Assembly: GCA_016177315.1 (NCBI GenBank)
Contig: JACOVN010000130.1
Coordinates: forward strand, 1-12,397
Origin: Candidatus Woesearchaeota archaeon
GTDB taxonomy: Archaea; Nanobdellota; Nanobdellia; Woesearchaeales; UBA12501
Length of the DNA stretch: 12,397 bases
Direction: 5' to 3'
How positions within the stretch are numbered: position 1 is the stretch's first letter; each line of letters starts with the position of its first letter. Position numbers and translations under genes: made by a program. The notes beneath the pieces are model-generated. The model was not told the origin of the DNA. It ran no database searches and saw only the letters and a program-made list of their open reading frames with translations. Positions 1 to 12,397 of this stretch are shown in pieces.

Positions 1-529
1 ATGTATACCTAGTCATGGCTGCAGGATTATGGTGAGCAATCAGCACATCATTCAACACTGGTTCTGAAATTTTCTTTCCCTGGAGAATAATTTCTAATCT
101 GCTGACAGTTGTCTTTGGAGTTTGATTCAAGTTTTGCAGTAATTCTGCAAAATGTTCTCCATTCGTTGCACAGTAAAAGCCAACACTGTGGTTGGAGTCA
201 GAGTTTACTCCCAGCATCGGAGTATGCTCTACATAATGGGAAGCTTCCAGGAACGTGCCATCTCCCCCAACAGTAACAACCAAATCATATTCCTGCATTC
301 TTTCCCGCATCTCTCCCAATTGGGCCCGATGCGCAGTCTCATACGCAATACCTTGCTTTGTAAGCTCTCCCATCACAGTTTCCAGTGTTCTTTTCTGCTC
401 CTCATGGCTCTTCCGCATTCTTGCAACATCTTCACTGCTCTGCTCCATAAACGCACGCAGCTCTGGAGTTGGAGAACTCTGATATAATTCGTAAATGCTC
501 TTCTTGTACACGACAAGGACTTTGTTCAT
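1..529 (-). CDS. nadK: NAD kinase, 3' end cut by window edge
   Basis: Phosphorylates NAD to NADP; the last step of the pathway encoded here. The visible 176 residues begin MNKVLVVYKKSIYEL and contain the diagnostic VTVGGDGTFLEASH (GGDG at 88 to 91), PMLGVNSDSNHSVGF and the second signature VLNDVLIAHHNPAAMTRY (LND at 159 to 161, matching the NE/D motif). Between the first strand and GGDG is a charged, Met/Gln-rich helical stretch (about 25 to 75), longer than in most bacterial enzymes. Roughly the C-terminal 100 or more residues lie past the window edge. The ATG at 529 overlaps the DraG-like stop (ATGA), with GGTGA 4 bases upstream, so it is translated as part of the same chain. Identity is sure. 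Confidence 0.93.
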   Translation of the reverse strand, partial: MNKVLVVYKKSIYELYQSSPTPELRAFMEQSSEDVARMRKSHEEQKRTLETVMGELTKQGIAYETAHRAQLGEMRERMQEYDLVVTVGGDGTFLEASHYVEHTPMLGVNSDSNHSVGFYCATNGEHFAELLQNLNQTPKTTVSRLEIILQGKKISEPVLNDVLIAHHNPAAMTRYT

Positions 530-1569
530 GTCTTCACCGATGTTAGTTTATAGAGCTCTTCTGCAACAGCAACGAGTTTATCCAAACCTTTCAAAGCCCG
601 TATCCACGTCTGTGGAAAAACTGTCCCGCATCTTGCTCCGCAGAGTGCACCATAGATGGCTCCGGTCGTATCGCAATCTCCTCCGAAATTTACTGTCTCT
701 AGTAATCCTTCGATCGGGTCATTCCAATATCTCTGGAACAGGAAGAGAGCAAAAGGATAGGACTCAAATACACAACCAGAGTTGCCTAACTGCCGAAATG
801 CATGGTCAGGGCTTCTATCTGGATGTTCCTGAATCCAAACAAGACGCTCGGTGAGACTTCCAGCATCAGCAAGAGTACAATCAGCAGTAACTGGTTTCTC
901 ATGCAGCATTCCCACTTCCACCAGGGAATTCAAAAAATCTTGACGAGCAATGTTCTGAAGGAGAACATAGACAGCATGTGCCTGTACCACTCCACTGACC
1001 ACAGAGCGAGGATCCAAATGTGTAACCCTTGCCACTTGCGCTGCGAAACCCAACCCCTCTGCATATTCCCCGGTTGCATGCATATACAAGCCGACAGGAG
1101 CCATTTTCATGGCAGGCGCATTACCAGGGCTTCCGACAACGCCAGAGTGCAGGGGAGAAATGCTTTTTCTCAAATTTTCAAAACCCTGCATGGTGGTTCT
1201 TCCAAATCCCCCGTGGACTCGGCCATCAGGTTTCCTGCGGATTTCATACGCCTGTAGCTGTCTTTTTGCGACATCCTCTAAATCCAGGCCTTGCCTGCTA
1301 GCAATGGATTCCGCCAAAGCCAACGTCAGAATGGTATCATCAGTGTATTCTCCCCTTGCAAAATCCTTGGTAAAATATCGCAGTTTTCCGAACTCATCCG
1401 CCTTGACCATTTGTCCCTGTGCATCCCGGACCATAACCGGAGCCAGAGGTTCAATTATTTTTCCAACGTATTTTTGGATCTGCTCTCGCTTCCAACCTTC
1501 TACCGGCATACCCAGAGCATCGCCGGTAGCACACCCGACGAGCGTTCCAATAAATCTGTCTTTGGTCAT
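526..1569 (-). CDS. ADP-ribosylglycohydrolase family protein (DraG/ARH-like)
   Basis: Removes ADP-ribose from proteins or other acceptors, using a two-metal centre. The 347-residue protein shows GCATGDALGMPVE (12 to 24), GEYTDDTILTLALAES with T76, D77 and D78 as metal ligands, a Gly-rich middle (VVGSPGNAPAMKMAPVGL), and the C-terminal NFGGDCDTTGAIYGALCG with D298, D300 and T301 completing the site. All core ligands are present. Length is at the upper end of the DraG range. The start at 1569 overlaps the nucleoside hydrolase stop by 4 bases, with GAGGTGA 7 bases upstream, and the stop overlaps the NAD kinase start by 4. No ADP-ribosyltransferase is in the window, so the modification it reverses is unknown. 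Its product ADP-ribose is what the operon's Nudix enzyme could destroy. Confidence 0.92.
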   Translation of the reverse strand: MTKDRFIGTLVGCATGDALGMPVEGWKREQIQKYVGKIIEPLAPVMVRDAQGQMVKADEFGKLRYFTKDFARGEYTDDTILTLALAESIASRQGLDLEDVAKRQLQAYEIRRKPDGRVHGGFGRTTMQGFENLRKSISPLHSGVVGSPGNAPAMKMAPVGLYMHATGEYAEGLGFAAQVARVTHLDPRSVVSGVVQAHAVYVLLQNIARQDFLNSLVEVGMLHEKPVTADCTLADAGSLTERLVWIQEHPDRSPDHAFRQLGNSGCVFESYPFALFLFQRYWNDPIEGLLETVNFGGDCDTTGAIYGALCGARCGTVFPQTWIRALKGLDKLVAVAEELYKLTSVKT

Positions 1570-2423
1570 ACTCCTCTCACCTCGCTCCCTTGTACTGTTC
1601 CCATGGTGGTTAAAATTTGCTGTTTAAAATGTTTCTGCACATCGGTAGTAATCTCCACAGTACCATGCTTTACTCTGGTTGTCATTTCTGCATCAACATG
1701 ATGATGCACCACCAACGGATCATACAGATAGGCAACATCGTACATGCTCTTCCTGAGCCAGTTCTGTGCTGCAGCATAGAGGTATGCTCCAACATGCCCC
1801 TGTTCCCTTAATCGTTCAAAATCCTCCTTCGTCAGCCAGCTCTTCTTGCACACTTCTGTCGTAACAATGATTTTGATTTTTGGCACTGCAGCTGCAAGAA
1901 CAATGTCTGCTGCCTCTGGATCTGCCTTGAAATTATGGGCACGATAGTTGAGATGGTAGGTATCACCGCAGAGAAGGGCATTGCCCATGATGTACAGGGC
2001 ATTGACCATTTCCGGCAATTCTGGATATTTCTGAAACGCTCTTGCAATATTCGTCATCGGAGCAATGCTGGCAATGCTAATATTGTTTCTATTCGCATGA
2101 ATGGTCTCTGCAATCGCATCAACGCCATCCTGCCGAAAATCAAATTGCTCTTCCTCCTCTACCAATCCTTCCCCTTCATCCCCATCCCAATAGACATGCC
2201 TTTGCTTCATCGGCTTTTGCTCTCCTGCAGCAACCGGGATATCTTGGCCTAAGAGCAACGTAAGCTTTTTTGCAATCTTTGCTCGCAAAGCAGTATCTCC
2301 ATGGGAAGTGCTGATCAATGCTATAGGCATTCCTGCCTTCACGGCATAGAGTATCGCAAGAGCATCATCTACATCAGAGCCAATGTCCGTATCGATAATT
2401 AATTTTTCATTTGCCTTTTCCAT
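1566..2423 (-). CDS. Nucleoside hydrolase (inosine-uridine preferring type)
   Basis: Hydrolyses the N-glycosidic bond of a riboside, releasing base and ribose. The 285-residue protein has the calcium site IIDTDIGSDVDDALAIL (D11, D13, D17, D19, D20), STSHGDTALRAKIAKKL, IPVAAGEQKP, IASIAPMTNIARAFQKYPEL, LYIMGNALLCGD and KADPEAADIVL, all typical of the family. Near the C-terminus the HDxxA-type motif is YDPLVV, keeping the metal-binding Asp but with Tyr in place of His. The ATG at 2423 with AGAGGAT 4 bases upstream is preferred over a TTG at 2438. The gene overlaps the preceding one by 17 bases and the next by 4. In this NAD setting, nicotinamide or nicotinate riboside is a possible substrate; ordinary purine or pyrimidine ribosides are equally possible. 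Confidence 0.9.
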   Translation of the reverse strand: MEKANEKLIIDTDIGSDVDDALAILYAVKAGMPIALISTSHGDTALRAKIAKKLTLLLGQDIPVAAGEQKPMKQRHVYWDGDEGEGLVEEEEQFDFRQDGVDAIAETIHANRNNISIASIAPMTNIARAFQKYPELPEMVNALYIMGNALLCGDTYHLNYRAHNFKADPEAADIVLAAAVPKIKIIVTTEVCKKSWLTKEDFERLREQGHVGAYLYAAAQNWLRKSMYDVAYLYDPLVVHHHVDAEMTTRVKHGTVEITTDVQKHFKQQILTTMGTVQGSEVRGV

Positions 2424-3321
2424 GGTAATCCTCTGCAATGGCCTGAATTAAGTTTAAAGCACTCAAGACAGATTCTCTTCTCAGGCAAACCTCATCGCCC
2501 AGCATGAGGGTTTTGTACCCAACCTTGAGCAAATAGGCAATATCACTGATGTCCTGAGAAGCTGGCTCCAAACTCTCTGCAAGAGAAGAACAAATTCTTG
2601 AGGCTGCAATAGCTTCTGCATCTTTTGCAATCAACAGCTCTGTTGCTTCCAGAATATGGTGGGGTTTTACAACTTCCGTGTATAAATCTCCCCTTGCTAA
2701 CATGAGTCTGGACTGCTTTGCCTTCTGATAATCCTCCCTGACGTACCGAATCCCTTTCAAGGATTCTATTTTCTCTGCAATGGTTGCATGAGCATCAAAC
2801 GTTTGCAATGCAGCAACATCTGCCGAAGATTCTACATACGAAAGCATATAATCATGCAAGCCAACTTTGCCAGCTGCTTCCACATATCGTGCATCTGTTT
2901 CTGTTAGGTAACCGTCAATCTCTAAGCTTGGATCCACAATGTTCATGGACTCTCCAGGCCCTACCACCCTCTTTGGCCCATCGAGGAATATCAGCCTATT
3001 CCCATCTACTGCTACCAGTTTAGCTTCCTCTCCTCCATTGCCGAAGTAGGCAGTCACTGGAGTTTTGACTTTGATTGCATGACTGACAGTGATTTCTGTA
3101 AATGGTGGAGTGGCATATCCCACGACTCTCAATTGCCTTCCCTTGAGGTCAATCCATATTGTTTTTCCAGCGGCGCTGTCCTGCAGTCTCTTCAGCACCT
3201 CTTCCAGGCTTTCCTTCACCGGCATGACCGTATTCAGGCGAAGGCCCGACACCAGAGGATGTCGGGCTACCTCACCCAAAAACGGTGCATACGGCGGCAT
3301 CGTCACAATAGTGTCTATCAT
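2407..3321 (-). CDS. Shortened pyruvate-kinase-like barrel protein
   Basis: A 304-residue relative of pyruvate kinase (normally about 470 or more). Matching elements run in order: LRLN (R28, N30; consensus ARLNFSHG), IDLKGRQLRV (58 onward; consensus DTKGPEIRT), a short B-like domain of about 60 residues, EIDGYLTETDARYVEAA (consensus LTEKDxxD), EKIESLKGI with K184 and E186 (consensus KIEnxEG), MLARGDL with D212, and SDIAYLLKVGYKTLMLGDE (consensus SDVANAVLDGTDAVMLSGET). The phosphoryl-transfer Lys and the metal Glu/Asp are kept, but the Ser of LNFSHG is Val and the usual C-terminal domain is absent. It may act on a related enolate or phosphate substrate rather than being a glycolytic enzyme. 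The start is set by a 4-base ATGA overlap; its Shine-Dalgarno is weak, so coupled translation is likely. The stop overlaps the nucleoside hydrolase by 17 bases. Confidence 0.75.
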   Translation of the reverse strand: MIDTIVTMPPYAPFLGEVARHPLVSGLRLNTVMPVKESLEEVLKRLQDSAAGKTIWIDLKGRQLRVVGYATPPFTEITVSHAIKVKTPVTAYFGNGGEEAKLVAVDGNRLIFLDGPKRVVGPGESMNIVDPSLEIDGYLTETDARYVEAAGKVGLHDYMLSYVESSADVAALQTFDAHATIAEKIESLKGIRYVREDYQKAKQSRLMLARGDLYTEVVKPHHILEATELLIAKDAEAIAASRICSSLAESLEPASQDISDIAYLLKVGYKTLMLGDEVCLRRESVLSALNLIQAIAEDYHGKGK

Positions 3322-3383
3322 GGTGCCAACCTTTTGCTTTTGATCGATTTGCTTGCTCCCTTGCTTCCCGCCACCATGCTGCT
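3318..3383 (-). repeat. Ser/Lys-rich C-terminal tail, copy B (amidotransferase-like protein)
   Basis: Codes for SSM plus a basic tail ending GASKSIKSKRLAP. It resembles copy A at 4197-4265, which ends GGSKKSKSLTKP. At DNA level the strongest shared part is AGCAAAAG followed by TTG close to both stops. The two genes are otherwise unrelated, so this looks like a shared tag or a common pressure on sequence. Confidence 0.45.
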
Positions 3384-4184
3384 CTTGAGGTCGCTGCTCA
3401 AGATAGGCATGGGAACACAGAGGCATGCCAGAGTGTTCAAGGTGCTGTAGGCTGCCTCCAATTCTGCAACTTTTGCCTCCTCCATATCTGCCGTCTTGGT
3501 GGCCCCAATTTTCTCAAGGAATGCTTCTAACCCTGCCTCGTCTTCCTTGGTTCTGAGATGGGTTCGCTGCAATTCCATGTGGCTGATGAAGTGCAGCACT
3601 TCCCCCTTGCCTTCGGTAAATCCAATGGCAACAAAGGGTTTCCCGTATTTCTCCTCCATCTCGGTGCTGGTAATCAGCGGCACAACACCCTCTCCAATGT
3701 CGAAGACATGGCTGCTCCCCTCGAGCCACCATTTTGGATGGCATTGGGAGTAATTCAAGCCAAGGAATCTCCTGGCAATGTCGGTGTGGCACTGTACCTC
3801 TACCACATCATCGCTGGTGTCCACGACTTTCTTCACTCTGCCTGGAAAAACTTTGGCAACCAACCCCTGGGCCCAGTCTGTCGTCACAAGCCTTCCCCCT
3901 TCCTGCACGAACTGCTCAACAGCCTTTTTTGGCACACCTCCATCGTATGGCTTGCAGTTGACAAACCAGACTCTGCCTCCATTATGGCTCTTCATCTGCT
4001 CTGGAGTGATGAGCTCATAAGGCACGTGCAGGGTGTCCAGCAATGCTTCGATGTGGTCGTATTGTCCCTGCACAACCACCAGCTCTCCTGGCGTAATGGC
4101 CTTGAGCTGCTGATATAGTGCAGGACTTCGCAACTTGCTCACCTGCTCAAAGATTTGTCCGCTACTCTTGTATGCTTCCTTCAT
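3318..4184 (-). CDS. Uncharacterised protein, probable class I glutamine-amidotransferase-like fold
   Basis: A 288-residue protein without a confident family name. Residues about 33 to 228 alternate strands and helices in a flavodoxin-like pattern: GELVVVQGQYDHIEALLDTL, RVWFVNCKPYDGG with C77 where an amidotransferase-like elbow could lie, then GGRLVTTDWAQGLVAKVFPG, SDDVVEVQCH, HPKWWLEGSS, VAIGFTEGKGEVLHFISHMELQRT. The GGxLVTTDW and GxVLHFxSH elements resemble ThuA/amidotransferase-like domains; a working Cys-His-Glu triad cannot be assigned, so a binding role is as likely as catalysis. Residues about 230 to 288 are an added helix and hydrophobic stretch (TLACLCVPMPIL) ending in a basic tail, GASKSIKSKRLAP, similar to that of the VWA protein. 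It follows VWA by 12 bases and overlaps the next ATG by 4. The tie to kinase and VWA suggests one complex. Confidence 0.7.
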   Translation of the reverse strand: MKEAYKSSGQIFEQVSKLRSPALYQQLKAITPGELVVVQGQYDHIEALLDTLHVPYELITPEQMKSHNGGRVWFVNCKPYDGGVPKKAVEQFVQEGGRLVTTDWAQGLVAKVFPGRVKKVVDTSDDVVEVQCHTDIARRFLGLNYSQCHPKWWLEGSSHVFDIGEGVVPLITSTEMEEKYGKPFVAIGFTEGKGEVLHFISHMELQRTHLRTKEDEAGLEAFLEKIGATKTADMEEAKVAELEAAYSTLNTLACLCVPMPILSSDLKSSMVAGSKGASKSIKSKRLAP

Positions 4185-4189
4185 GTTGA

Positions 4190-4199
4190 CACCTCCTTA
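4190..4199 (-). promoter_or_regulatory. Very strong ribosome binding site of the amidotransferase-like gene
   Basis: TAAGGAGGTG lies 5 bases before the ATG at 4184 and includes the VWA stop codon TAA. It is the best Shine-Dalgarno in the window. Confidence 0.8.
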
Positions 4200-4265
4200 G
4201 GGTTTTGTCAAACTTTTGCTCTTCTTGCTGCCTCCTTTGCCTTCCACTTTGGATTTCATGCTGCC
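4197..4265 (-). repeat. Ser/Lys-rich C-terminal tail, copy A (VWA protein)
   Basis: Codes for GSM plus a basic tail ending GGSKKSKSLTKP, the counterpart of copy B at 3318-3383. Confidence 0.45.
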
Positions 4266-5162
4266 CATGGCCGCCTCAGGCACATACCGCAACGATTGCA
4301 TCACGGTTGCAACAGCCCCTCCTTCTTGCCTGGATGCAAGATTCAGTTCAAAGTCACCAAACTGCCCCCAGCGCTTTGCAACAATGCCCATGGCAACGTC
4401 TACCACCCTCATCGGATCATAGACGGGGATAACTTTCTGCCCTCCAACGGCTTCTTTCCACTGTGCAGTAATTTCCTCGTCATGGCCAGGATATGGCTTT
4501 CTCAGCAGGTAGATGTCAAATCTCTGGGTTAATTTCTGCCACACCTGCATTGCGTCCAATGCGCCCTGCAGTTTGTCTCCAAGGTAATGCTGCACTTGTG
4601 CAGGATCTATCTTCTCGTAGAACTTCTCGTCCCCCATGATGATCAGGAAGGGCGAGATAGCGTTGGGTGTTTGGCAGTGCTCCTGCATAAAATAAGCCCA
4701 CAATTCATAGCTCTCCCGAATGCCTGGGCCTCCTCCTCCTTCTGGATGCAGGGCCTTGAGGTAGTCATCCAATGCAATTTCTTTCCCAAAGCTAGTCACT
4801 TGTACCGGCCATTGATCTGCTGCTGCATCCCCAATCACAGAAAAGCTCAGCTCGACACCTGGCCTGTACTTCGACAATGTTTGGTAGAGCAAGGGCAGCC
4901 TGTCAAAGATTTCTGCTGGCCAGTGCTGCATCGACCCAGTGCCATCCACGGCAAGGATAACAGGGTCCTCGCTTTTCGTGGAGATGGTTTTGCCTTTTGG
5001 ATCCACCAACTCTAATTTTGGTCCCTTGCCTAAAGCATAGCTCCTTGGCCCCTTTGTTTCTGCTTCCTTGGCCAAGTCCTCTAGATACGGTGCTCGGGCC
5101 GAGCCGTAGTCATACGAACTTGGCTTTTTCCAGGTCTTGGTATCGTCTCCCCAGCTGTACAT
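4197..5162 (-). CDS. von Willebrand factor A domain protein with Ser/Lys tail
   Basis: A 321-residue cytosolic protein without signal peptide or membrane segment. The N-terminus is Trp/Tyr/Lys-rich (MYSWGDDTKTWKKPSSYDYG). The VWA domain begins near residue 66 with PVILAVDGTGSM, a MIDAS metal motif (D73, T75, S77), continues through ELSFSVIGDAAAD, a Gly-rich GGGGPGIRESYELW (142 onward, the region of the second MIDAS loop) and PFLIIMGDEKFYE, and ends by about residue 270. The C-terminus is a basic low-complexity tail ending GGSKKSKSLTKP, matched by the tail of the next gene product. VWA proteins commonly act as metal-dependent binding or scaffold subunits; in Ter-type and similar clusters they sit beside protein kinases. 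Here it is directly after a kinase. Function is otherwise unknown. Confidence 0.88.
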   Translation of the reverse strand: MYSWGDDTKTWKKPSSYDYGSARAPYLEDLAKEAETKGPRSYALGKGPKLELVDPKGKTISTKSEDPVILAVDGTGSMQHWPAEIFDRLPLLYQTLSKYRPGVELSFSVIGDAAADQWPVQVTSFGKEIALDDYLKALHPEGGGGPGIRESYELWAYFMQEHCQTPNAISPFLIIMGDEKFYEKIDPAQVQHYLGDKLQGALDAMQVWQKLTQRFDIYLLRKPYPGHDEEITAQWKEAVGGQKVIPVYDPMRVVDVAMGIVAKRWGQFGDFELNLASRQEGGAVATVMQSLRYVPEAAMGSMKSKVEGKGGSKKSKSLTKP

Positions 5163-5170
5163 GGTTCTCA

Positions 5171-5176
5171 ACCTCC
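5171..5176 (-). promoter_or_regulatory. Ribosome binding site of the VWA gene
   Basis: GGAGGT lies 8 bases before the ATG at 5162. An in-frame TTG at 5171 overlaps this site and is not a likely start. Confidence 0.6.
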
Positions 5177-5186
5177 GGTCGTTTTG

Positions 5187-5972
5187 TTACTTTTTCTCCA
5201 CCAATTTTTCTAATGTAGATCTTCTACCAAAAGCTTCCAAACGAATATCCGAGAGCCTTGCAATCAAATCCTGCTTACTCCAGTTTGGCCTTTCCATGGG
5301 ATCATACCGCACTAATTCCTTGCAGAATTCCTGCATCGGCTCAGGAACCCAAGAAGGGAATGTTTTCGCAATGGGATCTCCTCCCAAAGTATAGATCATC
5401 GTCAAGCCTACTGCATAGAGATCGGATTCTGGCAATGGAGGGTTTCCTTCGATGATTTCTGGTGCAACAAAGACAGGAGTATAGCCCACTGCCTTTGATT
5501 TTCTGGTTGGAAGCAAAGAAGCCAAACCATAATCCACAAGAACAGCATTGTGTACTTCTGGCTGGACAATAACATTCGGGGGTTTGACATCGCCATGGAT
5601 GATGCCGAGGCTGTGGAGGTAATGCAACGCATTGAGCAACCGTTGCATAATCCAGGCCACTTCCTCTGGATGCAGGGCTTTGTGCTTTTCAATGATTTTA
5701 TTCAAGGTTCTCCCTTCAATGAACGACATGGCCAGAATAGTGCTCCCATCCTCGGCCTGGAAGAAATCCCGAGTGGAAGGGAGAGAATGATGATGGACTC
5801 TCCAGAGCAATTTTGCTTCTCTCCGTAACAATTCTGTATCACTGGGAGAGAGATTGATGTTCTGCTTTAGGCATGCTTTTTCATCGAGGTAAATATGTCT
5901 TGCTTCATAGGTTCTGGCAAATCCCCCTTCCCCAATTTGCCGAACAACCTCATAGTGACCTAGTCGTGTCAT
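5187..5972 (-). CDS. Soluble Ser/Thr protein kinase, catalytic domain only
   Basis: A 261-residue Hanks-type kinase with no sensor domain or membrane segment. From the N-terminus it shows the Gly-rich loop IGEGGFARTY (13 to 22), K36 in ACLKQ as the ATP lysine, E52 in RREAKLL as the helix C Glu, the catalytic loop IIHGDVKPPNVIV (D128, K130, N133), VDYGLA for the metal-binding DFG (D147) and VAPEII (E172). All essential residues are kept, so it should be active. It is a non-RD type (HGD in place of HRD), with Tyr in place of the Phe of DFG. It starts 11 bases after nadA and is followed 24 bases on by a VWA gene. No PP2C phosphatase is visible in the window. Targets are unknown; the next two gene products are the obvious candidates. 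Confidence 0.93.
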   Translation of the reverse strand: MTRLGHYEVVRQIGEGGFARTYEARHIYLDEKACLKQNINLSPSDTELLRREAKLLWRVHHHSLPSTRDFFQAEDGSTILAMSFIEGRTLNKIIEKHKALHPEEVAWIMQRLLNALHYLHSLGIIHGDVKPPNVIVQPEVHNAVLVDYGLASLLPTRKSKAVGYTPVFVAPEIIEGNPPLPESDLYAVGLTMIYTLGGDPIAKTFPSWVPEPMQEFCKELVRYDPMERPNWSKQDLIARLSDIRLEAFGRRSTLEKLVEKK

Positions 5973-5978
5973 GCATAT

Positions 5979-5984
5979 CCTCCT
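5979..5984 (-). promoter_or_regulatory. Ribosome binding site that fixes the kinase start
   Basis: AGGAGG lies 6 bases before the ATG at 5972 and just after the nadA stop. The in-frame TTG at 5987 precedes the site and is rejected. Confidence 0.65.
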
Positions 5985-7003
5985 CAAGCTGCCTTTACCT
6001 CATTCTTTGCATCGCTCCCAAGCTCGAACATTCTTTCCAGGCATTTCTCTGCCCTTGCTCTGATTGGCTCAGGAACAACAATCTCTGGCTTTTCTTCCTG
6101 CAAGGTTTGCAAGGTATTGTGCAAGTCGATCTTCTTCATGTAAGGACAGACAGTACAGGCTCCAACAATGTTTTTCTCTGGCATCTCTGCCTTAATGGTG
6201 GAGGCTAAGCCGCATTCTGTTGCCAAGAAGTAGGCAGGAGCATTGGTTTCCCGAATGTATCTCCTCATGTCGCTCGTTCCGCCATGCATGTCTGCTGCCT
6301 TAATCACAGAGCCATCGCATTCATAATGCGCAAGAACTTTCAAGCCCGGATGCTGAGAGCGTAAAACAGGAATGTAAAGCCCTGCATACTGCTCATGCAC
6401 AATGCAAGCGCCATCCCACTCAATGATTTCCTTGTCTGGCAGCTCTTCCCTCAGGTTTCGAGCCATGTATTTATCTGGAATGAAGACAATTTTTTTCTGC
6501 GGCAATCGGGAAATGACTTTCTTGGCATTGGCTGAGGTAACACAAACATCGCTCTCTGCCTTCACCTCTGCAGTCGTGTTGATATAGGTTACCACTGCTG
6601 CATCTGGATACTGTTCTCTCAGTCTTCTGACGTCTGCTCCGGTGATGCTTGCTGCCAAGGAGCAGCCTGCCTCTAAGCTCGGCAACAGCACCTTCTTCGA
6701 TGGATTGAGAATCTTCGCTGTCTCTGCCATGAAATGCACTCCACAAAAGACAATCATCGCTGCATCGGTTGCTTTCGCTGCCTTGCTCAAATCTAGGGAA
6801 TCTCCAATGTAATCCGCAATGCCAACCTTGATGCCATCCCGCATGTAGTAGTGCGCAAGAATAACCGCATTCTTTTCCTTCTTCAGGGCATTGATTTCCT
6901 CAATAACCCGAATCATGTCTTCCAGGTCATAGACTCCAACGCCTTGCTGAGAGAAGTAATCAGCAAGTTCCTGTCTTGTTCTTCTTTTATTTTCTATTGC
7001 CAT
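5984..7003 (-). CDS. nadA: Quinolinate synthase
   Basis: Condenses iminoaspartate with dihydroxyacetone phosphate to quinolinate with an oxygen-sensitive [4Fe-4S] cluster. The 339-residue protein has NAVILAHYYMRDGIKVGIAD, the three expected cluster cysteines C114 (EAGCSLA), C229 (LAHYEC, where most members read HPEC) and C286 (ACTVCPYM), plus DSLDLSKAA, FCGVHFMAETAKILNP and VVTYINTTAEVKA. Length is normal. ATG 7003 is chosen on Shine-Dalgarno spacing; an in-frame GTG at 7012 would add three residues and overlap nadM by 4 bases. Its partners, a source of iminoaspartate (nadB or aspartate dehydrogenase) and nadC, are not in the window, so the de novo route must be completed elsewhere. An iron-sulfur enzyme here suggests an anaerobic or microaerobic host. 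Confidence 0.96.
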   Translation of the reverse strand: MAIENKRRTRQELADYFSQQGVGVYDLEDMIRVIEEINALKKEKNAVILAHYYMRDGIKVGIADYIGDSLDLSKAAKATDAAMIVFCGVHFMAETAKILNPSKKVLLPSLEAGCSLAASITGADVRRLREQYPDAAVVTYINTTAEVKAESDVCVTSANAKKVISRLPQKKIVFIPDKYMARNLREELPDKEIIEWDGACIVHEQYAGLYIPVLRSQHPGLKVLAHYECDGSVIKAADMHGGTSDMRRYIRETNAPAYFLATECGLASTIKAEMPEKNIVGACTVCPYMKKIDLHNTLQTLQEEKPEIVVPEPIRARAEKCLERMFELGSDAKNEVKAA

Positions 7004-7007
7004 GAGG

Positions 7008-7013
7008 ATCACC
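7008..7013 (-). promoter_or_regulatory. Ribosome binding site that favours the nadA ATG
   Basis: GGTGAT overlaps the nadM stop and lies 4 bases before the ATG at 7003. The alternative GTG start at 7012 lies inside this site, so ATG is preferred. Confidence 0.5.
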
Positions 7014-7635
7014 GTTCTTGAACATGAAGCTTCTCGGCTTTCCCATCTTCCAATTTTTGGTAATCTCGCTCTGCGAGCTGTGCTAATGTTTGCAAACCAA
7101 ATTCCTGCCTGAATCTTTCCACTAATCCGTTCTTTTCCAAATAGGCAGCAACGGGCTCAGGCACCAATCCCCTCCAATTCCCTCCCTTGGCCATTTCAAT
7201 TCTTACCATGGTTCCACTGACTCTAACCCTTTTGTCTTCCGGCACCAGCTCAACAGGATGTACTACAGGATAGGAATCTTGCAGCAGTCCAGTGACATAG
7301 GGATTGCCGGAAATGAACGCATCCAAGCTTCCAAACTGCTGCCGAACTTCTTGCTTCCATCGCTGGCCATCGCTATACTCAGGAACATGCCCGTAGTCTG
7401 GGATGAGCAGAATGGTGTAATTGCTGTATCGAGGAGAAAGGAACACCTCTACCATGGCTTTGCTTTCCTCTGCGGTGAAGGGGTTTCGTGCATTGTACTT
7501 ATTGGAGCTTCCAATACCGATGATAACATACTCGGCCTGCTCGCAGAGTGCTTCGAGCATTGTGGCTCCGCCATTATGCAGTGGCTTAAACCGTGCAACC
7601 AATCCCACTTTTCCCAGCTTTTTTTCCAGGCTCAT
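7009..7635 (-). CDS. nadM: Nicotinamide/nicotinate-nucleotide adenylyltransferase, archaeal NadM type
   Basis: Joins NMN or NaMN to AMP from ATP, giving NAD or NaAD. The 208-residue protein has the nucleotidyltransferase start KVGLVARFKPLHNGG (archaeal consensus GRFQPxHNGH), then VIIGIGSSNKYNARNPFTAEE, PDYGHVPEYSDGQRW, FISGNPYV and the ATP-binding SGTMVR (140 to 145). The HxGH nucleotide-binding motif is altered: H20 is kept but the second His is Gly23. About 30 residues past the core (ending KAEKLHVQER) form a charged tail. The start at 7635 is chosen for its 4-base ATGA overlap with the Nudix stop and GGAGAGGA 5 bases upstream; a start at 7650 is also open. Family is sure; activity with HNGG needs proof. 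Confidence 0.9.
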   Translation of the reverse strand: MSLEKKLGKVGLVARFKPLHNGGATMLEALCEQAEYVIIGIGSSNKYNARNPFTAEESKAMVEVFLSPRYSNYTILLIPDYGHVPEYSDGQRWKQEVRQQFGSLDAFISGNPYVTGLLQDSYPVVHPVELVPEDKRVRVSGTMVRIEMAKGGNWRGLVPEPVAAYLEKNGLVERFRQEFGLQTLAQLAERDYQKLEDGKAEKLHVQER

Positions 7636-8102
7636 GCCAATCCTCTCCATTGCAAATACTTCAGCAAAATCCTGTCATGGTCAAAGGCCAATTGCCTTTT
7701 CCTGATGAGCTCCTTGACTTCTGGAATGGTATAGAGCCTTGCTGCTACGGCATCATCTCCTGCTCGCAAGGTTCCATAGCCTTTTGCAACATACGCAATG
7801 CTGATGATATGTGCTCTGGGATCTCTGTCAGGAGCGGAATGCACGCACAAGGGCTGCTCGGGAGTCTCCAGAATGACTTCCAAGCCGGTTTCCTCTCTTG
7901 CTTCCTTTCGTGCATTTTCCTCAAGGCTTAACCCCCACTCTGCAAATCCTCCAGGGATAGCCAAGCCATGCGGAGGATTCTTTCTTGTGATAAGCACAAT
8001 GCCTTCCTTCTTTCCATCACTATACTCGATGATAATGTCTGTAGTCGGGAAAGGATTTCTGTAGTTCGGCCTTTGGTATGTTTCGGGTGTTGTTTGCGTC
8101 AT
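7632..8102 (-). CDS. Nudix hydrolase, probable ADP-ribose pyrophosphatase
   Basis: Likely splits ADP-ribose, or a related nucleoside diphosphate derivative, to AMP and ribose 5-phosphate. The 156-residue protein opens with YRNPFPTTDIIIEY and LITRKNPPHGLAIPGGF, a layout I associate with archaeal ADP-ribose pyrophosphatases. The Nudix box follows as GFAEWGLSLEENARKEAREE then TGL. The metal-binding EAREE core is complete, but the first Glu of GX5E is Leu (GLS in place of the usual GES), and the Arg of REUXEE is Lys. An ADP-ribose role fits the DraG-like gene in the same operon, since that enzyme releases ADP-ribose. Substrate cannot be proved from sequence. The stop overlaps the nadM ATG by 4 bases. 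Confidence 0.88.
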   Translation of the reverse strand: MTQTTPETYQRPNYRNPFPTTDIIIEYSDGKKEGIVLITRKNPPHGLAIPGGFAEWGLSLEENARKEAREETGLEVILETPEQPLCVHSAPDRDPRAHIISIAYVAKGYGTLRAGDDAVAARLYTIPEVKELIRKRQLAFDHDRILLKYLQWRGLA

Positions 8103-8115: not shown

Positions 8116-10095
8116 CTAGAGCTTGAGATTTTGATCGGTATTTGCCATGGCAAGCACCTTCTGCTTGAGCATGCCATAAGCCCTTGTGGGCTCCCAAGGC
8201 AACATGCTCTCTCGAATATCAAAGCCATAGGCAGACTTGCTAGTGATGATGATAGGGGGAGCTTGGATTCTCTTGAACACATTTCTCTGCGTGGTGCTGT
8301 AAAACCATTCAATATCCTGCACAAACACTTTCGGATCGTCAATGCCCCATCGTTCCATGAGGGAAGTGCTGATGCCAAGCTTCTCTTCCAGGGTTCCATC
8401 CAAATACCACTGCAGCACATCTTCAGGAGTTTTCTTCTTGTAGTCTGTTGCAGCTTCCAGCAGTGCATCATGGTAGCCGAACTTCATGGGATCAATTTGA
8501 TTGTCCTTCAATTCTGCTGTTGGCTGGATTTGATCATCCCGGAATCTAAAGAGCGCGTCTGGCAGCAAGATTTCAGGAATCACAGCATCATGGAAAATCT
8601 TCTCATTCAGGTAGCGAGCCATTTCCACCACTTCTGTTTTTGTCAGATCACCTATAGGAGCAATCGCTCCCCCAACATCCCCATAGAGGGTTGCATAGCC
8701 CAGAGCAGTCTCCAGCTTATTTCCATTGTTCGTGAAGAGAGCATGATACTTGGCAGCAATATTGGAGAGAATGGAAGTTCCACGAATCTTTGCTTGGATG
8801 TTTTCCTGATTCAGCTCGCTGAGCTGCCCGCCGCTGCCATCCAAATCATATCGTTCCAGGACTTCCTCATGCAATCTGACTAAATCCTCAATCGGAATCA
8901 CTTCATAAGCAATGCCTAATCTCTCTGCCACAAGGGCCGCTGTTTGTTTCGTTTTATCAGAATTATACCTCGTTGGCATATTCACTGCCAGAACCTTATC
9001 TCTTCCAACTGCCTGCACCAGCAATGCTGCAACAACAGCACTGTCTATGCCGCCGCTCAAACCAACCACATACCTTGGATGCTCTGGAAGGCCCAAGGTA
9101 TCTTTTACGCTCCTGATGCCTTGGATGATGGCATCGTACTTCTGCGCAATCTTTGGTAGTTCTTCCCGTTCTTGTGGAGGCTTGGCAAAATCAGCATCAT
9201 CCACTATCAGCAATTCTTGCTGAAAGGAATCATGGGCGAATTTCACCGGCAAGCCATCAACATTATAGGCAGTAGAGCCGCCATCAAAAGAGATGATATT
9301 CTTGCCATTATTCTGTACACTCACGCAATTCACATAGAGGAATGGCTTGAAATCTTTTCCAGATTCCTGCTTCAGGAATTTCACCCTTCTGTCTCTCTCC
9401 TTGCCTTTGCCGACATTCCAGGGAGAGGCAGAGAGATTAATGACAAGCTCTGCTCCATTCTCAATCAGCATTTTTGCTGGATTCAATGGTTTGCCATTCT
9501 TCCTGTAATCCTCGCACCACAAATCCTCGCAAATCTCGAAGCCAATGGGAACTTTCTTTCCCTGCACTTCAATGAGGAATGGCTGCAGCAAATCCTCCAA
9601 AGAAACGCCTGCATCTTTTGCAGCATCTTCCAGGGAAAAGAAGTACCGCTCATCGTCAAAGTACCGATAATTCGGCAGTAATGTTTTTGGCTGTACTCCT
9701 TGTGGCAGAATCTTGGTTTCCTTTGCCCTTTCCACTGGCTTTCCATTCTGCACAACAGAGACGGCATTATATTTTCTAACTCTTCCATCTTTGTTGGGAT
9801 GCCAGCTGTTATCTTCAACACGCTGATGAACAGTGCGATCTGCAAAGATATTTCCATATGCAATCGCAATGCCCTGGCTTGCCTTCAGGATGTCCTCATG
9901 GTAGCTCATCAAATCCCGGCAAAAATCTTCATCCAGCCATTTATCCCCAACTACGTATCCACCAAGGCACATCTCCGGGAAAACAACAAGGTCTGCCTTC
10001 TGCTCTTTTGCCTGCTCAATCATCTCCAGCATGGTCTCTAGGTTTTTCTTCGGCCTTCCAGGGACAACTTCCATTTGGGCAAGCGCTATTCGCAT
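8116..10095 (-). CDS. nadE: Glutamine-dependent NAD+ synthetase
   Basis: Amidates nicotinate adenine dinucleotide to NAD using ATP and ammonia from glutamine. The 659 residues fall into two domains. Residues 1 to about 280 are a nitrilase-type glutaminase with the Glu-Lys-Cys triad visible as E41 (VVFPEMCLGGY), K137 (before TLLPNYRYFDDERYF) and C189 (GFEICEDLWCED). Residues about 320 to 659 are the ATP-pyrophosphatase synthetase with the PP-loop GLSGGIDSA (S347 to S352) and GGAIAPIGDLTKTEV further on. Length agrees with the long two-domain form (the Mycobacterium enzyme is about 680); many archaea instead have a short ammonia-dependent enzyme. AGGAGGGG lies 6 bases before the ATG. The start overlaps the GNAT gene by 10 bases. 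Both active sites look intact. Confidence 0.97.
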   Translation of the reverse strand: MRIALAQMEVVPGRPKKNLETMLEMIEQAKEQKADLVVFPEMCLGGYVVGDKWLDEDFCRDLMSYHEDILKASQGIAIAYGNIFADRTVHQRVEDNSWHPNKDGRVRKYNAVSVVQNGKPVERAKETKILPQGVQPKTLLPNYRYFDDERYFFSLEDAAKDAGVSLEDLLQPFLIEVQGKKVPIGFEICEDLWCEDYRKNGKPLNPAKMLIENGAELVINLSASPWNVGKGKERDRRVKFLKQESGKDFKPFLYVNCVSVQNNGKNIISFDGGSTAYNVDGLPVKFAHDSFQQELLIVDDADFAKPPQEREELPKIAQKYDAIIQGIRSVKDTLGLPEHPRYVVGLSGGIDSAVVAALLVQAVGRDKVLAVNMPTRYNSDKTKQTAALVAERLGIAYEVIPIEDLVRLHEEVLERYDLDGSGGQLSELNQENIQAKIRGTSILSNIAAKYHALFTNNGNKLETALGYATLYGDVGGAIAPIGDLTKTEVVEMARYLNEKIFHDAVIPEILLPDALFRFRDDQIQPTAELKDNQIDPMKFGYHDALLEAATDYKKKTPEDVLQWYLDGTLEEKLGISTSLMERWGIDDPKVFVQDIEWFYSTTQRNVFKRIQAPPIIITSKSAYGFDIRESMLPWEPTRAYGMLKQKVLAMANTDQNLKL

Positions 10096-10622
10096 TGCGT
10101 TCCCCTCCTGGCAAAGTATTCATGTTCGAGCATCGACATTCTGACCATGTTGTGATACTCTCCTTGATGAAAATATTCATCCCGCAGAAAACCTTCTATC
10201 TGAAAACCTGCCTTTTCGTAGATGTGTCTGGCTTTAGCATTTTCTTCAAAGACAACGAGCCAGACCTTATGGAGGTTGTACTGTTCAAAAGCAAGCCTTA
10301 ACAGTTCCTGGAGAGCGCTCTGTGCGTATCCTTCTCCCCAGTGTGCTTTCTTGCCAATGATTAAGGCGAGTCTTCCGGCTCTGCTCGGCCAATCGATCTG
10401 ATGCAAACCGATGTTGCCAAGGTACTCTCCCTGTTCTGTCTCAATAGCAAAGAGTTTATCAGTCTCACTGGCAATTATCTGTTCTAAGAATTTCTGCTCC
10501 CGTTCCCTGGAGATGGGTGTTTGGAAGTTGGCAAATTTTCCAACTACTGTAGGGTCATTCACCCATTCCATGATATGGTTTAAATCCTTCATTTCCAGTG
10601 GTCGTATTCTTGCAGCCACCAT
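10086..10622 (-). CDS. GNAT-family N-acetyltransferase (RimJ/RimL/SpeG-like)
   Basis: Predicted to move an acetyl group from acetyl-CoA to an amine; the substrate is unknown. The 178-residue protein matches the Acetyltransf_3-type pattern: an N-terminal IRPLEMKDLNHIMEWVND, then LGNIGLHQID, the acetyl-CoA loop IGKKAHWGEGYAQSAL (Q/RxxGxG/A type), and the C-terminal motif ENAKARHIYEKAGFQIEGFLRDE. Relatives acetylate ribosomal protein N-termini, spermidine or small amines. The frame stays open upstream to 10739, but the added residues are a shadow of pncA, and the Shine-Dalgarno supports 10622. The stop overlaps the nadE start by 10 bases. Why an acetyltransferase sits between nicotinamidase and NAD synthetase is not clear. 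Family assignment is sure, role is not. Confidence 0.85.
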   Translation of the reverse strand: MVAARIRPLEMKDLNHIMEWVNDPTVVGKFANFQTPISREREQKFLEQIIASETDKLFAIETEQGEYLGNIGLHQIDWPSRAGRLALIIGKKAHWGEGYAQSALQELLRLAFEQYNLHKVWLVVFEENAKARHIYEKAGFQIEGFLRDEYFHQGEYHNMVRMSMLEHEYFARRGTQCE

Positions 10623-10626
10623 AGGC

Positions 10627-10634
10627 ATCACCTC
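10627..10634 (-). promoter_or_regulatory. Ribosome binding site that fixes the GNAT start
   Basis: GAGGTGAT overlaps the pncA stop codon and lies 4 bases before the ATG at 10622. The ATG at 10628 would lie within this site, so it is an unlikely start. Confidence 0.65.
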
Positions 10635-11265
10635 ACAGGTATTGCTCCACCTCTTTCGTCCAGATGAATCTCGCTCCGGCTTTCTGCCATGCCTCAAGCA
10701 TTGCATCGAGAGGAAGATTGGGCAGTTCCTTGATTGCATCTAATGGTACATAGACCTGTACCCCTCTCTGCAAAAGCCCCATGACAGCGAAGTTCACACA
10801 GACATTGGTTGCGACGCCATAGACAATGGCCATGTCTGGCTTGATGGTGTCCAGCACTGCTTCTGCATGCGGGGTTCCAGCAAAAACATCAAAGGCATCC
10901 TTGTAGAGGACAATGTTCCTTCGTCTCTTTACTTCCTCAGCATCAAAGCCTTTCTGCTGCCAATCAATACCATAGGGATCTTCTGGCTTCGTAGCAGGAA
11001 CATATTCTGCTCCTGGAGTATGCTGCATGCAATGCGGAGGAAAGGTTGTTCTGAAATCTGGCCTGTCAGAAATTTCTTTAGAATATTGATTGTGCCAGTC
11101 TGCGGTGTTCACAACTTGCATTCCTTTCTTTGCTGCAAGCCTGGTTATTTTTTCCAGATTGCCCTCAATTTCCCTTGCACCAGCAATTGCTAATGATCCA
11201 TGGAAGCTTTCATCACTCCGCATAAAGTCATACTGCGTATCCACATTCCAAAAGATAGTTTTCAT
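10633..11265 (-). CDS. pncA: Nicotinamidase (cysteine hydrolase family)
   Basis: Deamidates nicotinamide to nicotinate, feeding the phosphoribosyltransferase encoded just upstream. The 210-residue protein shows the isochorismatase/nicotinamidase fold with the full catalytic triad: D9 in VDTQYDF, K122 in LYKDAFD and C156 in VATNVCV. The metal site typical of true nicotinamidases is present as D56 and H58 in TADWH and H78 in PPHCMQHTPGAE, which separates it from isochorismatases. The start at 11265 is set by an extended Shine-Dalgarno and overlaps the mini-ORF stop by 4 bases. Length is normal for the family. The context with PncB, NadM and NadE supports nicotinamide recycling, whether from NAD-consuming ADP-ribosylation or from scavenging. 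Identity is sure. Confidence 0.93.
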   Translation of the reverse strand: MKTIFWNVDTQYDFMRSDESFHGSLAIAGAREIEGNLEKITRLAAKKGMQVVNTADWHNQYSKEISDRPDFRTTFPPHCMQHTPGAEYVPATKPEDPYGIDWQQKGFDAEEVKRRRNIVLYKDAFDVFAGTPHAEAVLDTIKPDMAIVYGVATNVCVNFAVMGLLQRGVQVYVPLDAIKELPNLPLDAMLEAWQKAGARFIWTKEVEQYL

Positions 11266-11348
11266 CGTGCATCACCTCCCTGCAAGCAGAAAAGATGAAA
11301 AATTCCAATGCTTCCATGAATGCTGCCAAGCTCTACGAAGGCTTTCAT
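11262..11348 (-). CDS. 28-residue mini-ORF bridging pncB and pncA
   Basis: This frame fills the only gap over 30 bases in the window. Its ATG overlaps the pncB stop as ATGA (11345-11348), and its TGA stop overlaps the pncA start as ATGA (11262-11265), so the reading chain is never broken. It has its own strong Shine-Dalgarno 6 bases upstream, while its final codons GGA GGT GAT contain the pncA ribosome site. The product starts MKAFVELG, has a mildly hydrophobic middle (GSIGIFHLFCLQ) and ends GGDAR. No known family is recognised. It could be a true small protein, a translational coupler that carries ribosomes from pncB to pncA, or chance. The double ATGA junction plus good Shine-Dalgarno favours translation; function is unknown. 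Confidence 0.5.
   Translation of the reverse strand: MKAFVELGSIHGSIGIFHLFCLQGGDAR
11271..11280 (-). promoter_or_regulatory. Extended ribosome binding site of pncA
   Basis: GGGAGGTGAT sits 5 bases before the ATG at 11265 and is a near-full complement of the 16S 3' end. It fixes the pncA start and lies within the end of the mini-ORF. Confidence 0.8.
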
Positions 11349-12397
11349 GCTGCCTCACCTCCAAGATGGTTGTTTGCATATCGCTCTGTCAGCTTGCCAA
11401 CTAATTTCTGCAATCGTGAAGAAATCTCTACACAGTACGATGTTTCTACCCTGACTTGTTTCACGTATTCTGGCAATTTTGCAACACAATCCAGAGCATG
11501 GCGCTGAATTTCTGTAAGGTTCCTTCGTTCTTTTGTTCTCTTTCCATCCTGCACTATTAATTCCAGCAAAGGTGTTCCTTCTCTGCATTCTCCTTCCAAT
11601 GCAAGAACATCATGGGAGTAATTTCCTGCTGCATCCGAAATTCTGTAAACCTGTTTCTTCCCAGGACAGGTCTGTTTTCCAGGAGAAAGCTTGATCTTTG
11701 CTCCATCTCCATCTTCGACCAGCTTATACACGCCAGCAATCGCTGCAACTGGCTTTGCCGTGATAAGCTCTGTTCCAACCCCATAGCCATCGATCGGAGC
11801 TTTGTTTTTGACAAGCTCTGCAATTTTGTATTCATTCAAATCTCCGCTGGCAAAGATTTTCACATACTGCAAGCCTTCTTCATCGAGAATTTTCCTAACT
11901 TTCTGGGATAAATCCAAAAGGTCTCCAGAATCTAGCCGTACTGCTCCAAGTTTCTTTCCTTGCTGCACTAATTCCTTCGCAACAATAGCAGCATTCCTCG
12001 CTCCCTGTACAGTATCATAGGTATCGATCAACAATGTTGCATTCTCTGGGAATGTTTTGACATAAGCCCTGAATGCATCCAGCTCTGTTGGAAAGCTCAT
12101 GACAAAGCTATGCGCATGCGTTCCTGCAATGGGAATGCCATATTCCTTTCCTGCCTTGACATTGCTCGTTGCAACCGCTCCTCCAATATAGGCTGCCCGT
12201 GCACCCTTCATGCCGGCATCTTCTTCTTGTGCCCTCCTCAATCCAAAATCAACAACCTTGGCACCATTCGCTGCTTGCGCTACTCTGCTTGCCTTTGTGG
12301 CAATCATGGTTTGGAAATTGATGATATTCAGCAATGTTGTTTCCAAAAGCTGTGCTTGGGTTCTTTTTGCAGTCACTCGCAGAATAGGAGTATAGGG
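11345..12397 (-). CDS. pncB: Nicotinate phosphoribosyltransferase, 5' end cut by window edge
   Basis: Makes nicotinate mononucleotide from nicotinate and PRPP, the committing step of the Preiss-Handler NAD salvage route, in the cytosol. The visible 350 codons carry the family signature LETTLLNIINFQT near the broken end, then FGLRRAQ (about 12240), GTHAHSF holding the expected catalytic His (about 12120), LIDTYDT, VRLDSGDL (about 11940), ASGDLNEY and GVGTEL. Family members are usually 400 to 490 residues, so roughly the first 100 residues are missing. The frame is open through to 12397, with PYTPILRV preceding the in-frame GTG at 12376, so that GTG is internal and not a start. The stop TGA overlaps the ATG of the following mini-ORF. 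Downstream nicotinamidase supplies its substrate. Identity is very sure; the start lies outside the window. Confidence 0.95.
   Translation of the reverse strand, partial: PYTPILRVTAKRTQAQLLETTLLNIINFQTMIATKASRVAQAANGAKVVDFGLRRAQEEDAGMKGARAAYIGGAVATSNVKAGKEYGIPIAGTHAHSFVMSFPTELDAFRAYVKTFPENATLLIDTYDTVQGARNAAIVAKELVQQGKKLGAVRLDSGDLLDLSQKVRKILDEEGLQYVKIFASGDLNEYKIAELVKNKAPIDGYGVGTELITAKPVAAIAGVYKLVEDGDGAKIKLSPGKQTCPGKKQVYRISDAAGNYSHDVLALEGECREGTPLLELIVQDGKRTKERRNLTEIQRHALDCVAKLPEYVKQVRVETSYCVEISSRLQKLVGKLTERYANNHLGGEAA
11355..11362 (-). promoter_or_regulatory. Strong ribosome binding site for the 28-codon mini-ORF
   Basis: GGAGGTGA lies 6 bases before the ATG at 11348, inside the last codons of pncB. 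The match to the CCUCC-type anti-SD is as good as for the real genes of the operon. This is the main reason to take the mini-ORF seriously. Confidence 0.55.

Follow-up and report, generated by a model that had tools for sequence, protein, structure and literature searches.

The window analysed here, a 12,397 bp stretch that is a whole contig (G000:C43) of a Candidatus Woesearchaeota genome of 0.9 Mb and 79% completeness, carries an operon for the synthesis of nicotinamide adenine dinucleotide (NAD). All its genes are on the minus strand and run pncB, pncA, GNAT, nadE, NUDIX, NMNAT, nadA, KIN, VWA, GAT, PKL, IUNH, ADPRH and nadK. Our subject is the block KIN/VWA/GAT/PKL, four co-directional genes that separate nadA from IUNH/ADPRH/nadK, in the position in which an earlier note on this DNA had described them, and whose gaps do not exceed 24 bp; the junctions from pncA to nadK range from an overlap of 38 bp to a gap of 25 bp, some starts being uncertain. 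We propose, with about an even chance of being right, that KIN-VWA-(GAT)-PKL works as a phospho-signalling cassette, housed as a block within the NAD operon, in which a kinase and an adaptor with a phospho-tail control a dedicated phosphotransferase. The members of the block are the following, in window coordinates.

5187..5972, minus strand: KIN, a Hanks-type Ser/Thr protein kinase of 261 amino acids (aa; PF00069, 1.3e-38).
4197..5162, minus strand: VWA, a von Willebrand A protein of 321 aa, named from a predicted model, its matches in the PDB and conserved residues.
4197..4268, minus strand: VWA residues 299-321, a C-terminal tail predicted to be disordered and bearing a K-S-x-x-L motif, the proposed kinase site, picked out by motif enrichment and by covariation with kinase activity.
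3318..4184, minus strand: GAT, 288 aa, an optional member whose fold has no assignment, ending in KSKRLAP.
2407..3321, minus strand: PKL, a pyruvate-kinase-like protein of 304 aa (PF00224, 2.6e-9).

Of the 352 genomes searched in the order, 27 contain the VWA gene, as do 15 of the 327 drawn from the phylum: 14 within the order and one (G480) in another order of the class. Forty-one cellular loci were examined, including two Planctomycetota records and with the G254 locus read from L013, whose KIN is an intact open reading frame (ORF, 9229-9999); some loci are probably fragments of one (L043/L044, L105/L106). PKL follows VWA at all 37 cellular loci with room for it, the other four (L044, L082, L104, L105) ending less than 130 bp past VWA. 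KIN lies beside VWA at 31 of the 41 loci and at 31 of the 36 with room, five of the ten that lack it having no more than 251 bp upstream; absence of KIN here means no match at E 1e-5 with the KIN profile, which divergent kinases may escape (L123 and L173 have ORFs upstream of VWA that might be such cases). GAT is present at only 8 of the 41. The core unit is KIN-VWA-PKL with GAT as an optional fourth gene; of the four-gene signalling or metabolite-sensing module proposed in the earlier note the stable neighbourhood and the signalling-type reading hold up, and the count of four needs correction. The co-occurrence tally that the same note had set as a test of chance arrangement shows the mutual neighbourhood kept, with NAD genes lying within 9 kb in the same orientation, one or more at 25 of the 41 cellular loci and two or more at 22. 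The archaeal NAD-linked loci, 23 in number, are spread across 15 families of the order, and the G480 locus, additional to the 41, reads NMNAT-KIN-VWA-PKL-nadA. The two near-identical Planctomycetota loci (L014/L015, 9412-13496) read NMNAT-VWA-PKL-nadE with no orthologous KIN, an opposite-strand kinase-like ORF beside their VWA having been judged unrelated and excluded from the KIN counts; this VWA is tailless and 46% identical to that of the window, and the two loci suggest a transfer of the module between domains. A VWA relative of 67% identity occurs in a Candidatus Woesearchaeota record. The VWA gene is broken at two loci: L079 (4188-5138) has an in-frame stop in it, and L165 has it split into two ORFs.

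NAD operons also exist without the block, so the cassette is optional. NMNAT of the window type (E ≤1e-30) was found in 32 of the 352 genomes of the order, 21 of which also have VWA. Among the 11 NMNAT neighbourhoods without VWA, one (L197) runs into KIN at the contig end, and KIN, VWA and PKL were all missing from the other ten as far as these could be read, two of them (L196, L204) ending within 1.3 kb of NMNAT; in L195 NMNAT is directly followed by IUNH and nadK. This distribution is consistent with gain and loss of the block as one unit.

The kinase of the window has a VAIK-type Lys, an HGDVKPPN loop and DYG at the DFG position, and has no J-domain. Among the NAD-linked kinases the VAIK Lys, the C-helix Glu, the HxD Asp and the DFG Asp are each kept in 20 of 20 and the loop Asn in 19 of 20, while the HRD Arg is replaced by Gly, Ser or Cys (HGD in the window). 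Judged by these residues KIN is a Hanks-type Ser/Thr protein kinase that looks active, in agreement with the earlier note, which was equally right about a VWA protein with a metal-ion-dependent adhesion site (MIDAS). No Pfam family matched the window VWA sequence, and neither VWA nor GAT had a credible match among PDB sequences. The predicted model of VWA (predicted local distance difference test, pLDDT, 80.6) matches VWA and integrin I domains in the PDB, and the MIDAS-type D-x-T-G-S motif (DGTGS in the window) and D178-E179 are invariant where covered in a 32-row alignment. By the model, the protein has the VWA fold; its sequence has a DxSxS-type MIDAS motif with the downstream Asp, a predicted metal site. 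Its last 23 residues, 299-321, have pLDDT values below 50 and are predicted to be disordered; the tail ends in KKSKSLTKP.

The make-up of this tail covaries with the state of the neighbouring kinase. Tails, taken as the last 22 residues of non-redundant rows, were scored for a loose pattern, [ST]xxL, and a strict one, [KR][ST]xxL; the counts exclude identical or empty tails and KIN+PKL rows with a domain match that did not reach position 290, and the set without kinase leaves out L042, L043, L080, L089 and L106 (upstream cut) and L160 (tail empty), L079 giving no tail. Of the kinases in these rows 41 retain the catalytic Asp; 40 of them adjoin PKL, the downstream gene of the other (L082) being cut off. 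The remaining 38 lack this Asp, and of these 35 lie beside a gene resembling adenylosuccinate synthetase (PurA-like) alone, one (L103) beside PKL plus a PurA-like gene, and two (L127, L139) on contigs cut after VWA. Beside an active kinase 37 of 41 VWA tails carry [ST]xxL (shuffled tails: mean 12.1, maximum 24, none of 2000 as high) and 20 of 41 carry the strict form (mean 2.5, again 0/2000 as high). Beside a kinase lacking the catalytic Asp the loose pattern drops to 13 of 38 (Fisher p 3e-7, a value that ignores relatedness), and the PurA-like rows, with 13/35 against 10.5 in shuffles, are at about chance level. The dead kinases are instead accompanied by VWAs with a C-terminal [RKDN][LIV], seen in 31 of 38 as against 0 of 41 beside active kinases. 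VWAs without a detected kinase show [ST]xxL in 2 of 13 and the C-terminal [RKDN][LIV] in 1 of 13. Control C-termini mostly carry the motif at low rates (PKL 4/52, KIN 5/64, NMNAT 1/23, nadE 0/10, NadK 0/8), and two sequences read after the pattern had been fixed, the VWA tail of L206 (KSSRL) and the GAT tail of L208 (KSTKL), fit it.

GAT shares the motif: it stands at the GAT end in 7 of 8 cases, 3 to 5 residues from the terminus, the GAT of L097 matching upstream of the tail only. No family is common to GAT and VWA, and no family at all was matched by GAT over cut-off, its weak matches being in conflict with one another. The amidotransferase-like label of the earlier note is not established, support for a class I glutamine amidotransferase never having risen above noise in family and PDB searches. 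A 7-row GAT search gave matches in 10 of the 352 genomes of the order, and in viral contigs 48 pattern stretches yielded no relative. One locus, L208 (4964-8191), has a set of J-domain KIN, PKL and GAT without VWA, and its GAT combines a VWA-like N-terminus (SYSWGNDT; 3.4 bits with the VWA model, a weak match) with the KSTKL tail; it looks as though GAT had taken the place of VWA. FHA is a phosphopeptide-binding domain, and in L207 (4747-5949) a GAT relative is fused to a C-terminal FHA domain (E 5.8e-19), with no other module genes in the 10 kb examined and no VWA match in its genome, G209. The L208 protein, with its VWA-like N-terminus and KSxxL tail, and the FHA fusion suggest that GAT may serve the kinase as a further adaptor and not act as a metabolic enzyme.

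PKL resembles pyruvate kinase in its barrel plus B domain, which forms a lid, and in its conserved catalytic positions; its profile matches solved pyruvate kinases (best 3e-20), and the catalytic Arg, Asn, Asp, Lys, Glu and Asp are kept at aligned positions, the roles and numbering of these residues being those of pyruvate kinase. It differs in lacking the C domain, in having Ser at the Thr328 position and Gln at the Glu117 position, and in its score of 43.3 bits against the pyruvate kinase equivalog TIGR01064, whose cut-off is 306.4, which places it below equivalog level. As far as residues can tell, PKL could carry out chemistry on phosphoenolpyruvate (PEP). It is not the only candidate for a pyruvate kinase in its genome, since a separate one over the Pfam cut-off is encoded at G000:C149 (the search in question did not list PKL); that ORF has 342 aa (L209:1028-2056) and is too short for a C domain, so loss of this domain is not special to PKL. 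The non-NAD PKLs of L041 and L118 have an extra C-terminal KKS[IL]F-W segment that the aligned NAD-linked PKLs do not have.

The module is not dedicated to NAD, to which the earlier note had tied it; it is also found on a plasmid, in large phages and in archaea in other gene contexts. The tree, built from 100 VWA domains (support by the Shimodaira–Hasegawa-like approximate likelihood ratio test, SH-aLRT, only, from a quick search; root arbitrary) left out VWA ORFs shorter than 200 aa, L042 and L043 being kept, and domain hits below about 170 residues, so that the NAD-linked L104 is absent. The NAD-linked VWAs group in one clade, made up of 24 rows and a further row from a cut contig (SH-aLRT 99). 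A second clade (24 rows, SH-aLRT 99) unites phage KIN-VWA-PKL sets with archaeal modules that have no NAD genes, and in a third (3 rows, SH-aLRT 100) VWA-PKL precedes genes of the Ham1, thymidylate-synthase and QueC families (L040, L102). Together with two that have no Pfam match, these genes may form a cluster for nucleotide modification, seen in two genomes of the order (L040:9086-16544, L102:5350-11919). The largest clade (44 rows, SH-aLRT 100) consists mostly of phage KIN-VWA with a PurA-like gene, and two pairs stand apart in the tree: the archaeal L043/L103, with PKL and PurA-like genes, and the phage L120/L123, with PurA-like genes. Among 66 IMG/VR loci, several of them near-duplicates, 18 have KIN with PKL, 36 KIN with PurA-like, 8 PurA-like without detected KIN, 3 KIN only (two cut shortly after VWA) and one neither, while PKL and PurA-like occur together in none of the 66. 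In annotated phages VWA was found in 197 records (surroundings of 2 read) and PKL in 2, and in plasmids VWA in 19 records (one read). In Mycobacterium phage LinStu the genes are gp257 (kinase), gp258 (VWA) and gp260, and both there and on the Rhodococcus plasmid pDK3 the enzyme gene is annotated as (2-aminooxy) adenylosuccinate synthetase. An ORF resembling ADP-ribosylglycohydrolase lies about 3 to 5 kb from some phage KIN-VWA modules (L107, L108, L114, L116, L124, L165).

The PurA-like proteins keep the Asp13, Lys16, His41, Gln224 and Thr239 positions of adenylosuccinate synthetase in 45 of 45 distinct sequences. They differ from it in having Gln for Asn38 and for Thr301 in 44 of 45, and in a loop at Arg303/Arg305 that is one residue shorter and retains neither Arg (45/45); an Arg or Lys stands just past the shortened loop, and the gap could be placed otherwise. 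In adenylosuccinate synthetase this loop serves aspartate binding, and the PurA-like partner (L120-L172 ORFs, L173, L174, L175, L043, L103) may possibly use a different amine substrate.

Around the block, the window holds these further genes.

11345..12397, minus strand: pncB, nicotinate phosphoribosyltransferase, cut by the contig end (TIGR01513, 391 bits, over cut-off).
10633..11265, minus strand: pncA candidate, isochorismatase-family, presumed nicotinamidase (PF00857, 3.8e-16).
10086..10670, minus strand: GNAT acetyltransferase, start uncertain (PF13302, 3.4e-25).
8116..10095, minus strand: nadE, NAD synthase, 659 aa (TIGR00552, 131 bits, cut-off 63.65).
7632..8090, minus strand: NUDIX hydrolase, start uncertain (PF00293, 3.5e-14).
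7009..7650, minus strand: NMNAT, of the archaeal nicotinamide-nucleotide adenylyltransferase type (NF002243, 2.7e-24, below the curated cut-off).
5984..7012, minus strand: nadA, quinolinate synthase (NF006878, 365.6 bits, cut-off 294).
1566..2423, minus strand: IUNH, nucleoside hydrolase (PF01156, 1e-45).
526..1569, minus strand: ADPRH, ADP-ribosylglycohydrolase of the DraG family (PF03747, 2.3e-60).
2..529, minus strand: nadK candidate, cut by the contig end; an open ORF whose name comes from the earlier note, with homologous ORFs in the NAD operons of relatives.

The GNAT acetyltransferase recurrently adjoins NAD genes (window 10086-10670; L088, L093, L198), one cassette-less operon included.

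In the phospho-signalling cassette that we propose, KIN would bind the disordered C-terminal tail of VWA, and that of GAT where present, and would phosphorylate the Ser or Thr of the K-[ST]-x-x-L motif. VWA would be the adaptor, holding a partner (PKL or another protein) via the MIDAS metal site, and PKL the dedicated enzyme under the switch, probably a PEP-using phosphotransferase or a sensor of PEP or energy. Placed after NMNAT/nadA, the cassette would couple NAD synthesis to the energy state; for such gating of NAD synthesis the evidence is the operon position and the NAD-linked clade alone. In a sister branch, among phages and on an actinobacterial plasmid, the kinase is dead and VWA mostly has a C-terminal [RKDN]-[LIV], and a PurA-like ligase would be the enzyme under control. 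Several observations weigh against this proposal. The patterns were defined after most tails had been seen, and the loose one also occurs in other C-termini (pncB 4/10, pncA 2/11, PurA-like 8/44) and is absent from 4 of the 41 tails beside an active kinase (L096, L097, L100, L118). The active/dead contrast rests on few switches, and over seven independent pairs differing in KIN presence the tail changes in the same direction in 5.5 and in the opposite in 1.0 (sign test p 0.125), so that the link between tail and kinase is strong in counts and phylogenetically not decisive. PKL is also found without a detected adjacent kinase (L014/L015, L040, L093, L102) and with a dead one (L103), and hence does not strictly need phosphorylation, and NAD operons run without the cassette. 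A bolder version, which we consider doubtful, makes KIN-VWA a plug-in control unit for re-purposed nucleotide enzymes across DPANN archaea, Planctomycetota, actinobacterial plasmids and giant phages: an active kinase would phosphorylate a portable K-[ST]-x-x-L adaptor tail, of VWA or GAT, to gate a PEP-driven enzyme, which in NAD operons would meter NAD synthesis against PEP. The phage kinase would have turned into a reader of the adaptor C-terminus, serving a PurA-like ligase that has given up aspartate and yields some N6-substituted purine nucleotide.

Among other readings, PKL might be a metabolic enzyme of the NAD operon, regenerating ATP or other nucleoside triphosphates locally from PEP for PncB, NMNAT, NadE and NadK, with KIN and VWA only assembling or tuning it and no sensing of NAD or energy. 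The retention of the checked pyruvate kinase residues, save for Ser at Thr328, and the Planctomycetota order NMNAT-VWA-PKL-nadE without orthologous KIN speak for this reading, to which we give a modest chance; but PKL also occurs in phages and at archaeal loci without NAD genes, its own genome has the separate pyruvate kinase, and its score lies far under the equivalog cut-off. Another reading makes the cassette a chaperone-like assembly unit. Among the kinases outside the NAD clade, 8 of 13 scanned have a DnaJ domain over the Pfam cut-off at the N-terminus and 2 more have one below it, and vWA has been called a Mg2+-dependent peptide-binding chaperone (PMC9503650), so that J-domain kinase and peptide-binding VWA might together fold or assemble the neighbouring enzyme. 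Such an assembly unit looks quite improbable, given that DnaJ found no match in the scanned NAD-linked kinases (window, L037) or in LinStu gp257, the pDK3 kinase and L157, and that it leaves unexplained why the Ser/Thr tail tracks kinase activity.

The phage occurrences raise the question of conflict, in which phages and DPANN archaea would use the cassette to preserve or restore their NAD and purine nucleotides when an attack depletes nucleotides. The module is widespread in large phage contigs (the 66 IMG/VR loci), ADP-ribosylglycohydrolase ORFs lie near some phage modules, phages that rebuild NAD against NADase effectors are described in PMC9503650, and the window kinase matches the PADLOC kinase models PD-T4-6 (5e-40) and mad6 (2e-39). 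These matches may, however, reflect no more than the likeness of kinases in general; neither VWA nor GAT hits a PADLOC model, PKL hits one weakly (E 0.016), and no NADase or nuclease family appeared among the window genes scanned with Pfam and curated family models. We regard a role in conflict as quite unlikely. Lastly, unrelated genes might have been caught between NAD genes by chance or operon hitch-hiking, a reading that could draw on the patchy occurrence in the order and on the operons without the cassette. The conserved block order contradicts a chance arrangement: NAD-linked loci keep it across 15 families of the order, as do such loci in Planctomycetota and in a further order of the class, and phages carry the same trio; we put the probability of this last reading close to nil.

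To our knowledge, the regulation of cofactor supply in DPANN archaea has been little explored, and few targets of protein kinases are known in archaea. If the phospho-signalling cassette is real, a single operon would hold a defined kinase together with two substrates, both named and with a predicted phospho-site, and the metabolic-type enzyme that they control. The phage cassette, with its kinase inactivated and its enzyme swapped, would be a natural experiment in the passage from a kinase-substrate pair to a pairing of pseudokinase and adaptor, and it points to unexplored PurA-like chemistry. No description of the cassette was found in the literature searched, most subscription journals lying outside it, nor any of PK-like or PurA-like partners, the shared tail or the split into active and dead kinases. 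The words 'pyruvate kinase' and 'adenylosuccinate' are both absent from PMC9503650, PMC7824862 and PMC7159879.

Kinase-vWA pairs themselves are known. A catalytically active kinase is usually linked to PP2C and a standalone vWA in the GAP1-N2-associated sets (PMC7159879), and the window resembles such sets in that its kinase gene adjoins a standalone vWA gene. The window operon differs from them in having no PP2C, its third gene being a PK-like or, in other branches, a PurA-like enzyme, and in the Ser/Thr tail motif common to its VWA and GAT. TerY-type kinase-PP2C-vWA triads are the other familiar kind of kinase-vWA set, and the same likeness and differences apply to them. The lack of PP2C remarked on in the earlier note is borne out among the window genes scanned and in the genome (79% complete) by PF13672 (PP2C_2), the sole PP2C model used; the scanned window genes include no FHA family either. 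A near precedent comes from Sulfolobus, where ArnB, a vWA protein with a MIDAS, is phosphorylated at its C-terminus by the kinase ArnC (PMC6509490). In both cases an archaeal Ser/Thr kinase has, or in the window would have, the C-terminus of a MIDAS vWA protein as its target. The phosphorylated part of ArnB, however, is a four-helix bundle whereas the tail of the window VWA is short and predicted to be disordered, and where ArnB partners with the FHA protein ArnA, the window VWA has a metabolic-type enzyme as its neighbour.

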